Shown here: positions 1 through 4,211 of the stretch, piece after piece | How positions within the stretch are numbered: the first letter of the stretch is position 1 | Layout of the letters: every line of letters starts with the position of its first letter | NCBI RefSeq assembly: GCF_029892565.1 | Contig: NZ_JARXVH010000008.1 | Coordinates: 310,001 to 374,000 of the forward strand | Origin: Streptomyces pseudovenezuelae | GTDB lineage: Bacteria > Actinomycetota > Actinomycetes > Streptomycetales > Streptomycetaceae | Reading direction: 5' to 3' | Length of the DNA: 64,000 bases | Translations under genes and position numbers: made by a program | The notes under the pieces: generated by a model | Told to the model about the DNA's origin: nothing | Databases searched by the model: none | The model's input: only the letters and a program-made list of their open reading frames with translations

Positions 1-3000
1 GGCCCGCGACCGTCGCGAGCATGGCGGTGGTCGCGGCGTTGAGGCCCTGCGCCCACAGCATCCCGTAGCGGTGCGCGAGGGCGAGGCCCCGCTCGGTGTG
101 ACGGCGTACGGCTGCCGGGTCGTTGCGGGTGCCGGCGGTCATGGCGTCGAGGTGTTCGCAGGTCCAGCGGTAGGCGGGGAGGTCGTGGTCCTCGGCGAGT
201 CGGCGCAGCTCAGCGACCAGCGGGGTGCGGGTGGTGCCGTGGGCCTCGTGTGGGAGCAGCTTGGCCGAGGTCATCAACGCGGCGGCCAGCAGACGGGGTT
301 CGCCGTTCGCGCGGGCGAGCGACAGCTGGGTGTGGGCCGCGTCCAGGGCGCGCGGCGCGTCCACGGCGGCGGCCGCCTCGACGAGGACCTGGAGCACCCG
401 GGCGCGGGTGGGGTCGTCCAGGGCGGGGTCGGAGGTCAGCCGCTCCAGACGGGCCAGTGCCGTGCGGTCGTAGAAGCCCTCCAACCTGCTGCGCCACGGG
501 GAGGGTTCGGTCCAGGCGCCGTAGACCGCCGCGACCAGGTCGCCCCGGTCGGCCCGCTCGGCGAGATCGACCGCGCGCCGCCGCGTGTGCAGGGCCGCGT
601 CCGTCGCGCCGGCCCGCACCTGCGCGCCGAGCAGCCGCACCAACAGCCCTACCGTGCGGTCGAGTTCGGTGTCGACGCCGCCCGTGACCCCGGTGGCGGT
701 GTGCACGTCGATCGCCTGCTGGATCAGGTCGACGGCGACGTCATAGGCGTAGCGCCGCTCCGCCGACTCGGCCGCCCACAGCGCGTAGTCGACGGCCAGC
801 GGCGCGTGCGCCGCGGTGCCCGAGCGGGCGAAGTGGTGGGCCAGCGCGGCGAGATCGTCGGGGCGGTGGCGGGACAACGCCTGCGCGATACGGGCGTGCA
901 GGCGGGCCCGCCGTACGCCGGACAGGTCGGTGTAGACGGTGTCGCGGACCAACGCGTGCACGAACCGCACGCGCCCCGGGCCGGGTTCGGCGAGCAGGTC
1001 CGCCGCGAGGGCGGCATCGAGCCCGTCAAGGACCGCCTCCTCGTCCAAACCACCCGTGCCGGCCGTACCGCCGTTGGCACCCGTGTCGCACGCGTCGATC
1101 AGCAGGGCGACGTCGGCCTCCAGGCCTACGACGGCGGCGAGTTGGAGGGTCGACCGGGCGCCGGCGGGCAGCATGGCCAGGCGTCGGCGCAGCACATCGC
1201 GCACACCCTGCGGGACCTCCGAGACGGCGACCAGGGCGCCCTCGCTGGCCAGCAGACGGGCGCTCTCCAGGACGTAGAAGGGGTTGCCGCCGGTGCGTTC
1301 GGCGAGCGCGGTCACCGTCGACGCGTCCACGGTCCCGCCGCAGACGGAGCCGACCACCGTGGCGATGTCCGTCGGTGACAGTCCGGTGAGCGTGATCCGG
1401 TGCGGGGCGCGGGGGGCGAGGCTGGCGAGCGTCTTGAGGAGGTCTTCGCCCACCTCGGCCGGACGGTGGCTGGTGACGGTGAGCAGGGGTACGCCGGTGA
1501 CGCCGGCCGCCGCTTCGAGCAGGGCGAGCGTCTCGCCGTCCGCGCGGTGCAGGTCCTCCAGGACGACGGCGAGCGGCCCGGCACCGGCCGCGTCCCGCAG
1601 CCAGGCGGCGAACGCGCGGTGCGTCCGGAACCGCCCCGCGGTCGCCTCGTCGCGACTGGCGGCGGCCCCGTCCTGCGGTTCGCGCAGCAGGACGGCCAGT
1701 TCCTCGGGCCGCGACGGCGGTACGTCCCGGGCGAGCGCCCCGAGCGCCTCCACCCAGGCCCAGGCGGGCGGCGTCCCCTCGTCCTCCGGACACCGCCCCA
1801 CGACCACCCGCCACCCGTCGGCCTGCAGCCGGCCGGCGAACTGGTTGAGCAGCGCGGACTTACCCGCCCCGGCCTCCCCGCTCACCAACACGACACCACC
1901 ACGCGGCCGGGCGGCCTGCACGACAGCGCCCAGAGCACGCAACTCCCGCTCCCGACCGACGAAAAGGTCATGGCCAGTGCGGGCCGCCTCGACTGAGGGC
2001 ATGGTTATCGATCGGGACGGGGCGGGCAGGCCGCCGGGAATGGCCTTGGACGGGACGAGCGAGCTTCCGGGCGCGGCGAGCGCGGGCACGGGCGCGGGCG
2101 CGAAGACACCCTCGGTTGGGCGGAACGCGCTCCCGGACGCGTGCGCAGATATGGGTACGACGAGCCCGCTCCCGGACCCGTGTGCGGACGCGAGCCCGCG
2201 TGTGCCGAGCCCGCTCCCGGACCCGTCTCCAGGCGCGGACGCCAGCGTGCCACCCCCGCTCGCGCCCCCATCCGCCGACGAGCCCGACCCACCCGGCCAC
2301 CCCGTCCCTCCCCCACGGACACTCACCGGCGACAGACGCCCGGCCCCCGCGCCCGCGCCCGCCTCCACCAACCCCCGAAGCACATCGGCCCGCCCCAGAA
2401 GCACCGCCCGCTCGACCTCCGCCAGTGCCGGCCCGGGGTCACAGCCAAGCTCCTCCCGCAACACGCTCGCCGCACGGCGCACCGCCGCGAGGGCGTCGGC
2501 CTGGCGGCCGCAGGTCCACTGGGCGAGGGCCAGCAGGCGCCAGCCTTCCTCCCTCAACGGGCTTTCGCGTACGAGGACTTCGGCTGCCGGTGCCGCCTCG
2601 GCCGCGTGGCCGGTGCGCAGGTCGGCGGCGACGGAGAGTTCGCGGGCCTCGGCCCGTAGTTCGGTCAGCCGGGCCACCTCCGCCGCGGCCCAGTCCTCGT
2701 CGGCGTGTTCCGCGAAGGCCGGACCCTGCCACCAGCCGAGCGCCTCGGCGAGCAGTTCGCGGGCCTCCTCGGCGGGAGCGTGCCGGGCCCGGGCCACCCC
2801 GGCCTCGAAGCGCCAGGCGTCCACCGCGTCCGCGGGCAGGCGAAGGGCGTAGCCGGGGGGTGCGGTGACCAGGACGGTCGCCGGGGTGCGCGGCAGGCGC
2901 CCCGGTTCGAGGGACCGGCGCAGGTTGGACACGTAGGTGTGCAGGGACACGACGGCCTTGGCGGGCGGTGTGCCCCGCCACAACGCGTCCGCCATCCGCT

Positions 3001-3154
3001 CGACCGGCACGGTGCTGCCCCGGGCCACGACGAGGAGTGAGAGGACAGCGCGCTGCTGCGGAGCGCCCAGCGGGACCGGGTTCCCCCCGAGGTCGGCGCC
3101 CGGTGAACCCAGGACTCGAATACGCAGCACGCCGCGGGAATCTACCCGAGCCAT
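1..3154 (-). CDS. SARP/AfsR-like transcriptional regulator (3' end outside window)
   Basis: Large transcriptional activator, cut by the window edge; about 1,051 codons are visible. Residues ~9-95 form an OmpR-like winged helix (begins LRIRVLG, ends near PPGYALRL). Residues ~100-250 are the bacterial transcriptional activation (BTAD) helices. Residues ~280-395 are a Gly/Ser/Pro-rich linker, followed by a STAND-type ATPase with Walker A GEAGAGKSALL (~425-435) and Walker B-like LAVVLEDLHRAD. The rest looks alpha-helical, TPR-like. I chose the ATG at 3154 because GAGG precedes it. SARP proteins bind direct heptamer repeats spaced one helical turn apart and usually activate secondary-metabolite genes. 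Such repeats lie at 3210-3238, between this gene and the divergent one, so autoregulation or control of the neighbour is likely. The target pathway is unknown. Confidence 0.88.
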   Translation of the reverse strand, partial: MARVDSRGVLRIRVLGSPGADLGGNPVPLGAPQQRAVLSLLVVARGSTVPVERMADALWRGTPPAKAVVSLHTYVSNLRRSLEPGRLPRTPATVLVTAPPGYALRLPADAVDAWRFEAGVARARHAPAEEARELLAEALGWWQGPAFAEHADEDWAAAEVARLTELRAEARELSVAADLRTGHAAEAAPAAEVLVRESPLREEGWRLLALAQWTCGRQADALAAVRRAASVLREELGCDPGPALAEVERAVLLGRADVLRGLVEAGAGAGAGRLSPVSVRGGGTGWPGGSGSSADGGASGGGTLASAPGDGSGSGLGTRGLASAHGSGSGLVVPISAHASGSAFRPTEGVFAPAPVPALAAPGSSLVPSKAIPGGLPAPSRSITMPSVEAARTGHDLFVGRERELRALGAVVQAARPRGGVVLVSGEAGAGKSALLNQFAGRLQADGWRVVVGRCPEDEGTPPAWAWVEALGALARDVPPSRPEELAVLLREPQDGAAASRDEATAGRFRTHRAFAAWLRDAAGAGPLAVVLEDLHRADGETLALLEAAAGVTGVPLLTVTSHRPAEVGEDLLKTLASLAPRAPHRITLTGLSPTDIATVVGSVCGGTVDASTVTALAERTGGNPFYVLESARLLASEGALVAVSEVPQGVRDVLRRRLAMLPAGARSTLQLAAVVGLEADVALLIDACDTGANGGTAGTGGLDEEAVLDGLDAALAADLLAEPGPGRVRFVHALVRDTVYTDLSGVRRARLHARIAQALSRHRPDDLAALAHHFARSGTAAHAPLAVDYALWAAESAERRYAYDVAVDLIQQAIDVHTATGVTGGVDTELDRTVGLLVRLLGAQVRAGATDAALHTRRRAVDLAERADRGDLVAAVYGAWTEPSPWRSRLEGFYDRTALARLERLTSDPALDDPTRARVLQVLVEAAAAVDAPRALDAAHTQLSLARANGEPRLLAAALMTSAKLLPHEAHGTTRTPLVAELRRLAEDHDLPAYRWTCEHLDAMTAGTRNDPAAVRRHTERGLALAHRYGMLWAQGLNAATTAMLATVAG
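2129..2240 (-). repeat. In-frame imperfect repeats in the SARP linker
   Basis: The linker between the BTAD and ATPase parts contains a GC-rich repeat whose core (gctcccggac on the + strand) starts at 2129, 2168 and 2213, spacings of 39 and 45 bases. All spacings are multiples of three, so the frame is kept. The encoded segments are Gly/Ser-rich (G-S-G motifs). This is probably a length-variable flexible linker rather than a functional site. Confidence 0.6.
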
Positions 3155-3209
3155 CGATCGGGCACCTCAACGGACGATAAACGTGCTGCTCAGCGCCGGC
3201 GAGGGGGGC

Positions 3210-3238
3210 GCCAAGCGGACGCCAAGCCGGTGCCAAGC
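3210..3238. promoter_or_regulatory. Candidate SARP operator: three direct GCCAAGC heptamers
   Basis: GCCAAGC occurs exactly at 3210, 3221 and 3232, an 11-base period, in the divergent intergenic region. SARP family regulators are known to bind direct heptamer repeats at 11- or 22-base spacing next to a -35 region. A SARP gene begins 56 bases away, which makes the assignment more likely. No convincing -10 box was found at the usual distance on either side, so which promoter it serves is unresolved. Confidence 0.6.
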
Positions 3239-3293
3239 GGAAGCCGGGAAGCTGTGAGCGCCATTGCCGTGAACGATCGTTGGAGCAAGAAAC

Positions 3294-4211
3294 GTGTTCG
3301 TACTCGACTCCGCCCCTCCCGGCGTGCTGCGCGCCTACCGGACCTGCGAGTTCGTCACCCTCGGCCGGGACGGCACGCCGCTGGTGTGGCCGACGGCGGT
3401 GTGGCGCCGCGAGGACGGGACGCTGCTGCTGACCACGTCCCTCGCCTTCGCGCAGAAGGCGCTGAACGTGCGCCGCGACCCGCGCGTCGCTCTGCTCTTC
3501 TCCGACCCCACCGGCAGCGGTCTCGACCACGCCCCGCAGATCTTCGTCGCCGGCCGGGCCGACTGCCCCGACACCGTCATGACGGGTCCCGAGGGCGCCG
3601 AGGACTACTGGCGGATGCTGTTCGAGCGGCAGCCGCACAGCCGCTCGTACCTCTCGGCCCCGATGAGACGGCTCACGGAGTGGTACTACCTGCGGCTCCT
3701 GATCACCGTCACACCCGAACAGGTCGTCGTCCGCGCCCCGTTGGCGCCGGACCACGACTCCGGGCCGGCCGTGGACAGCCCACTGCCGGGCGCCGCGCAG
3801 CTGGCCCGTTTCCCGACGGCGGTACTGGCCGCCCGCGACGGTTCCGGCGCACCCGTGCTCGCCCGGACCCGGCCGGTGCCGACCGCGGACGGCTTCGCGG
3901 TGGAGGTCCCCGCCGACTGCGCCGCGAAGCCGGGTCCCGCCTCCCTGCTGGTGCACCGGCACGACGAGCGGATCAACCACTTGCAGAACGCCCTCGTCCG
4001 GGGCGAGTTGCGGGAGACCGACGACGGCTGGCTGCTGGTGCCCGAGAAGGTGGTCGAGCCGATGGGCACGGGCCGGCCGAGCGACACGATACGACTGCTG
4101 CGCCACACCAAGCAGGCCACGAACCGCTACCTGGAGCGCCGCGGCCTCGAACGCCCCCGGGTGCGGTGGGAGGAGTTCAAGGCCCTCGCGGCGACGGCTC
4201 GGAAGGGCTGA
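3294..4211 (+). CDS. Pyridoxamine 5'-phosphate oxidase-like flavin-binding protein
   Basis: 305-residue protein. Residues ~1-130 resemble the split-barrel flavin/F420-binding fold of the PNPOx-like superfamily: an early CEFVTLGRDGTP strand turn, the VWPTAVWRR strand, and the ALNVRRDPRVALLFSD segment typical of these proteins. The C-terminal half carries a second, less conserved region that may repeat part of the fold. Such enzymes use FMN, FAD or F420 for redox chemistry on small substrates; nothing here fixes the substrate. GTG start at 3294 with GGAG at 3282-3285. It is divergent from the SARP gene and may be its target. Its stop lies only 3 bases from the stop of convergent pyc, so no separate terminator fits between them. 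Confidence 0.75.
   Translation: MFVLDSAPPGVLRAYRTCEFVTLGRDGTPLVWPTAVWRREDGTLLLTTSLAFAQKALNVRRDPRVALLFSDPTGSGLDHAPQIFVAGRADCPDTVMTGPEGAEDYWRMLFERQPHSRSYLSAPMRRLTEWYYLRLLITVTPEQVVVRAPLAPDHDSGPAVDSPLPGAAQLARFPTAVLAARDGSGAPVLARTRPVPTADGFAVEVPADCAAKPGPASLLVHRHDERINHLQNALVRGELRETDDGWLLVPEKVVEPMGTGRPSDTIRLLRHTKQATNRYLERRGLERPRVRWEEFKALAATARKG

Follow-up and report, generated by a model that had tools for sequence, protein, structure and literature searches.

Regulators of the SARP family have mostly been studied as switches of antibiotic clusters, and the locus described here raises the question of which promoter, and which gene, is served by a set of SARP-like heptamers lying between a SARP gene and a divergent neighbour. 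The stretch analysed, hereafter the window, comprises 64 kb of Streptomyces pseudovenezuelae (assembly GCF_029892565.1, contig NZ_JARXVH010000008.1, positions 310,001-374,000; its genome is denoted G000). On its forward strand, the heptamers CGCCAAG (3209-3215), CGCCAAG (3220-3226) and TGCCAAG (3231-3237), separated by the 4-nt spacers CGGA and CCGG, make up a SARP-type operator (3209-3237) predicted from their sequence and their conservation in relatives. Read one base later, they are three copies of GCCAAGC (3210-3216, 3221-3227 and 3232-3238) with a pitch of exactly 11 bp, and the first-pass annotation was accurate in reporting three heptamers 11 bp apart, starting at 3210, 3221 and 3232. 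It is well established that SARP operators are built of heptamers, in some cases three of them with 4-nt spacers (PMC10972967, PMC5930380, PMC3367932). The site is the only triple of identical 7-mers at 11 bp in the 64-kb window, where spacings of 8-33 yield just one other, at a spacing of 21; assuming independent bases, such a triple has P = 8e-8 at a given place, or about 3e-4 across 137 places and 26 spacings. That GCCAAGC is in itself somewhat common in this GC-rich window (18 copies observed, 9.8 expected) might suggest a chance triple or a neutral repeat devoid of function, but this is hardly conceivable, given that pitch, strand and distance to a -10 element are kept in common across Streptomyces, Nocardia, Nonomuraea, Actinomadura, Dactylosporangium and Micromonospora loci.

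To the left of the repeats is a SARP-AAA regulator gene on the reverse strand (1-3154), which leaves the window at its left edge and in the genome occupies C8:309405-313154, C-terminus and stop included, with 1249 codons counted from the ATG at 3154. Its product contains BTAD (6.4e-33), Trans_reg_C (2.7e-5, slightly below cut-off) and AAA_16 (7.4e-25) domains, and thus an OmpR-type DNA-binding domain followed by BTAD, as in the SARP family (AfsR and EmbR chains match both domains), and then an AAA ATPase domain, as in the SARP-LAL or large SARPs. The C-terminal LuxR helix-turn-helix is absent, as it is in PimR; a LuxR domain sought in the last 331 residues was not found, the only match being TPR_4 at 0.075. 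The protein is not an AfsR orthologue, scoring 128 bits with NF053617 against a cut-off of 1430 (1051 in-window residues scanned); among solved structures, its SARP region matches AfsR chains 8hvr, 8jke and 8k60 and, best of all, EmbR (PDB 2fez, E 2.2e-38), with a similar YVSNLRK recognition helix. EmbR, unlike the window SARP, carries an FHA domain (PMC10936776). The true start is probably the GTG at 3130-3128 and not the ATG at 3154, which would leave the gene with a short leader or leaderless, because a start at codon 9 is kept in 21/21 close loci (GTG in 20, window included; ATG in L049) whereas codon 1 is ATG in only three, the other 18 having no ATG there, and because TAGATT (3139-3144, reverse strand) would otherwise fall inside coding sequence. 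This TAGATT, likely the -10 of the gene's own short-leader or leaderless promoter, sits between codon 1 and codon 9 in 20 of the 21 close loci and is TAATCT in L063. Further upstream on the reverse strand (3162-3183), a second 11-bp direct repeat, CGTTTATCGTC CGTTGAGGTGC, can be read by eye; it resembles the AfsR repeat CGTT(T/C)ATCGNN (PMC10972967), and could either serve as the -35 of the SARP gene or tie that gene to AfsR or PhoP. In relatives this repeat often reads ...TGTTGAC, with the TTGA part about 20 nt upstream of TAGATT.

To the right of the repeats, on the forward strand, lies a gene (3294-4211) for a 305-residue PPOX/F420-type protein, with PNPOx_N at 8.9e-6, just under the Pfam cut-off, and TIGR03618 at 4.2e-11, also under cut-off; a convergent pyruvate carboxylase-like gene follows. 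It is the first gene behind the operator here and the second of the operon in relatives. The predicted -10 element of a rightward promoter, GAAGCT (3248-3253, forward strand), begins 17 nt from the first base of the last heptamer and is of the form NANNNT, which is conserved in relatives; it would place the transcription start near 3260, ahead of a leader or ribosome-binding stretch beginning TTGGAGCAAG (3280-3293, forward strand) that resembles the leader of a hemerythrin gene in relatives. GAAGCT itself is weak, and a consensus promoter scan found no sigma-70-type promoter in the operator region or at 3248-3253. A SARP gene had been annotated as starting right at the repeats; it does adjoin them, but on the opposite strand, with its start 55-79 bp from the first heptamer, and the predicted operator points away from it, at the divergent gene 3294-4211.

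In named genomes, 80 related SARP loci were found, of which 78 match the DNA-binding region (L088 and L121, which do not, were left out) and with the window make 79; L154-L158 and L183-L189 stand outside the counts (L154/L185 and L155/L186 repeat L057 and L059), and the loci are related by descent rather than independent, which inflates all counts. A hemerythrin match is present in 65/79, divergent and within 300 bp of the SARP start in 57, divergent at 625 bp in one (L120), and downstream of SARP in seven, all from Micromonospora. Three of the 65 matches are partial (61 residues in L060, 48 in L094, 34 in L091), and two of the hemerythrin proteins, run against Pfam, matched Hemerythrin at 9.3e-15 and 1e-13. 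Behind hemerythrin, 16 of the 20 closest relatives carry a PPOX relative 65-78% identical to the window's protein; none turned up in the other 58 loci.

Two CCAAG cores at a fixed step served as the pair test, and at 11 bp such a pair (at least 8/10) precedes hemerythrin in 65/65 cases. Among the 58 divergent loci (57 with hemerythrin, and the window), the 11-bp pair is perfect (10/10) in 33, at least 9/10 in 54 and at least 8/10 in all 58, and is found on the opposite strand in none; 9/10 pairs at other steps from 7 to 16 occur in 1-4/58, except for 12/58 at 12 bp, where the distal repeat stands one base further out. The at-least-8/10 test, which alone L044, L107, L108 and L119 satisfy, is loose, passing 9-19/58 at most other spacings and 39/58 at 12 bp. 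Chained at steps of 10-12 with cores of at least 4/5, the loci have two, three, four or five repeats in 15, 34, 8 and 1 cases, respectively; because in many close orthologues the distal repeat stands 12 bp off, a de novo test for three copies at strictly 11 bp does not reach significance for them. Conservation upstream of orthologues, which had been set beforehand as the trial of the repeats, is thus found, and the comparison supports the original reading of a SARP-type site with heptamers about one helical turn apart. The proposed word, GCCAAGC, needs adjustment: conservation is in the register [C/T]GCCAAG, and between clades it is mainly the CCAAG core that is kept. The predominant word is CGCCAAG within the Streptomyces/Streptacidiphilus clade and, outside it, TTCCAAG or CTCCAAG. 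Measured from the start of the last heptamer, NANNNT begins at 17 nt in 48/58 loci and at 16 nt in 7/58, compared with 0-4 loci at any other offset from 9 to 29, and so the heptamers would lie over the -35 region at a fixed distance from the -10, as judged from sequence only. Taken together, the heptamers are very probably the operator of the adjacent SARP-AAA regulator, which would drive the promoter of the divergent hemerythrin/PPOX-type operon.

Since the site lies in a shared intergenic region, with the SARP start only 55-79 bp away, the heptamers might serve autoregulation of the SARP gene through its leftward promoter, the divergent gene being incidental. We consider this very improbable on several counts: the distance from the promoter-proximal pair to SARP codon 1 varies from 41 nt (L048) to 114 nt (L058) while that to the rightward -10 is steady at 16-17 nt in 55/58 loci; each of the seven Micromonospora loci has, in the DNA examined, a single 9/10 CCAAG pair, placed in the interval from SARP to hemerythrin, ahead of hemerythrin and not of SARP, with NANNNT at 17; and L047 and L063, close SARP orthologues from which the hemerythrin/PPOX operon is absent, keep the SARP gene with its -10-like element and lack the repeats. 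These two are among nine loci (with L055, L056, L065, L067, L068, L069 and L079) that show no hemerythrin match in the DNA examined, the flanks being short for some (1158 nt for L055, for example), and whose 374 nt upstream of SARP contain no 9/10 pair. Of five loci outside the 79, L187 and L188 combine the site (NANNNT at 17) with hemerythrin, and neither was found in the 4 kb examined for L183, L184 and L189. Some dual control of the SARP gene and the divergent operon could nevertheless exist. By this comparison, the repeats, their 11-bp pitch and their near-fixed distance to the -10 belong to the promoter of the predicted hemerythrin/PPOX operon, and stay with that operon.

The window departs from its relatives in lacking the hemerythrin gene. 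Where relatives have the order leader-hemerythrin-PPOX, the window has the hemerythrin leader GATCGTTGGAGCAAG followed directly by the PPOX start. Because both genes begin alike in relatives (GTGTCC at hemerythrin in many of them, GTGTCC at PPOX in L057), the simple reading is that the hemerythrin frame was deleted between two similar starts in the window lineage, and the PPOX-type gene would thereby have become the first one driven by the operator. Elsewhere in G000 hemerythrin matches are only 34-39% identical, with no 9/10 pair in the flanks examined. A related arrangement occurs in genome G070, where the operator, with NANNNT at 17, precedes a PPOX gene 72% identical to that of the window (L218, G070:C144:18000-36000), no SARP or hemerythrin match being found in the 18 kb searched, and where the SARP-hemerythrin locus, taken to be L059, has no PPOX in the DNA examined; hemerythrin and PPOX thus appear to have been split into two loci, each with an operator. 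By eye, a short hemerythrin-like remnant stands between operator and PPOX in the G070 copy. In four Nocardia loci (L062, L064, L101 and L112) without a hemerythrin match, the operator and NANNNT at 17 are kept before another gene, judged by eye to encode a membrane protein, whose start, MSI[ST]TQG, resembles that of hemerythrin, and in L120 a similar membrane-protein-like gene, again by eye, lies between operator and hemerythrin. The window is, in this respect, a natural deletion experiment, with hemerythrin gone and the operator and second gene retained.

Whether the neighbouring SARP is the protein that reads the site can be addressed through its kin. The genome has 17 SARP-like matches, the window gene included, and SARP words are alike (PimR, for instance, reads CGGCAAG; PMC5930380), so that another SARP or OmpR-type regulator might bind the repeats in trans. 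This is very improbable, since the word segregates with the window SARP subfamily, subfamily and operator (at least 8/10) occurring together in 70/79 loci. The CCAAG pair at 11 bp occurs in 0/24 loci of a sister SARP subfamily (L159-L182; 48-54% identical; open frames of some 670-870 aa in most), whose words at that pitch are GCTCATC (pairs in 12/24) and CTGATC (9/24), and GCTCATC pairs are found in none of the 79 hemerythrin-type loci. In a FastTree phylogeny of the DNA-binding and BTAD region, the hemerythrin-type set groups together (79/79, support 0.887), as does the sister set with the G000 paralogue included (25/25, support 0.978). The comparison thus marks the CCAAG-type word as specific to the hemerythrin-linked SARP subfamily. 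In sister loci read by eye, the distance to a CACGCT-like -10 is similar. Comparison therefore yields recognition words without bench work, CGCCAAG/TTCCAAG here and GCTCATC/CTGATC in the sister subfamily, and makes SARP specificity directly testable. In AfsR, R92 reads position 3 of the repeat (PMC10936776); aligned by eye, the window SARP has N at this place, and L044, with R, has repeats with G at position 3, which hinted at a one-residue recognition code. Such a code was rejected: H is found in PimR-type SARPs whose repeats carry G at position 3, L048 and L052 combine H with C, and elsewhere N pairs with several bases.

With the neighbouring SARP as the preferred ligand, two or three of its protomers would line up over the -35 region, each on its own repeat, grip sigma region 4 and initiate rightward transcription into 3294-4211, with the AAA/C-terminal part perhaps gating activation in response to a signal. 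The usual placement of a -10 element is at -12 to -7. If this is assumed for the AfsR target promoter, the downstream AfsR repeat starts 17 nt before a weak -10, as here; an AfsR-like mode of activation is the best inference. AfsR also combines a SARP domain with an ATPase part, and at the afsS promoter two protomers lie side by side on the 11-bp direct repeats of the afs box, between -10 and -35 (at -40 to -19), providing a docking surface for sigma region 4 (PMC10936776); it differs in having two repeats of CGTT(T/C)ATCGNN where the window has three based on CGCCAAG. The PimR operator, TGGCAAG-N4-CGGCAGG-N4-CGGCAAG, is like that of the window in its three heptamers, 4-nt spacers and nearly identical word (PMC5930380, PMC3367932), and three protomers have been argued for it (PMC5930380). 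PimR is likewise a large SARP with an ATPase part and without the LuxR helix-turn-helix, and its site lies between regulator and divergent target, but it is described as standing off the -35 and serving an antibiotic-cluster regulator (PMC5930380), whereas the window site lies, by sequence, over the -35 region. With CGCCAAG and a -10-like element at 17 nt, the latter falls outside the PimR subtype (CGGCAAG, upstream of the -35). The literal PimR operator, with up to three mismatches allowed, is absent from G000 and occurs in 4 of 392 genomes, and across the DNA-binding and BTAD region the PimR-type SARPs found through it (4 loci) share only 36-38% identity with the window SARP.

Across several actinobacterial families, a single hemerythrin-like gene seems to go with the whole SARP subfamily, whose signal can therefore be sought in iron/oxygen chemistry. 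There is perhaps an even chance that regulator, operator and cargo form an ancient module lying outside antibiotic clusters and acting as a circuit for sensing oxygen, redox state or nitric oxide, in which a SARP-AAA protein governs essentially one target promoter; the cargo would be a hemerythrin-like di-iron protein, joined in Streptomyces by the PPOX/F420-type protein, and the operator would act as a socket that outlasts hemerythrin loss and passes to whichever gene comes next, as in the window, the G070 copy and the four Nocardia loci. Two published systems offer leads and are not evidence for a SARP-hemerythrin module. Hemerythrin-like proteins of Mycobacterium smegmatis, comparable as actinobacterial proteins of this general type, have roles in peroxide and erythromycin susceptibility, in a text that names MtrA and SigF and in which the term SARP is absent (PMC4660385), and the predicted OsdR targets of S. 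coelicolor include SCO0214 (pyridoxamine phosphate oxidase) and SCO0212 (a hemerythrin-domain protein) under one site (PMC5069765). A search of the openly licensed literature for a SARP-hemerythrin link, also via AfsR and BTAD, found none; within that literature the kind of operator is known and the SARP-hemerythrin module appears undescribed.

The word had been put forward as a means of finding further targets, and a scan for GCCAAGC repeats at 11 or 22 bp was run over the 11.33-Mb genome (86 contigs). Exact GCCAAGC-N4-GCCAAGC occurs only as the two overlapping pairs within 3209-3237, and the exact pair at 22 bp only at the same site. Looser patterns in G000 all gave fewer matches than their reversed controls (135 against 403 for 11-bp pairs with up to two mismatches, 24 against 66 when a -10 was added, 4 against 28 for 22-bp pairs with up to one mismatch), and a regulon defined by pattern was rejected. 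The CGCCAAG-type word thus marks one clear predicted site in G000, with no other convincing one. Among 1-mismatch sites, a -10 accompanies just one (C10:162367, L191), which is flanked by reading frames, recognised by eye, that diverge from it. Exact pairs are present in 25 of the 150 genomes searched; of 28 loci inspected besides the window (L123-L150, from other genomes of the genus), three are SARP-hemerythrin promoters and one is the PPOX copy, the other 24 having no SARP, hemerythrin or PPOX match within about 3 kb. Two of the loci, L123 and L132 (G035 and G047), share a near-identical TGCCAAG-CCGT-TGCCAAG with a fitting GACCAT at 17 nt; the 3 kb examined around them matches none of SARP, hemerythrin and PPOX, and they are possibly sites of another SARP. 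A GCCAAGT-N4-GCCAAGT-type pair recurs 3-6 times in G104, G046 and G049, and in the copies examined (L131, L135, L141 and L150) another GCCAAGTG follows shortly after.
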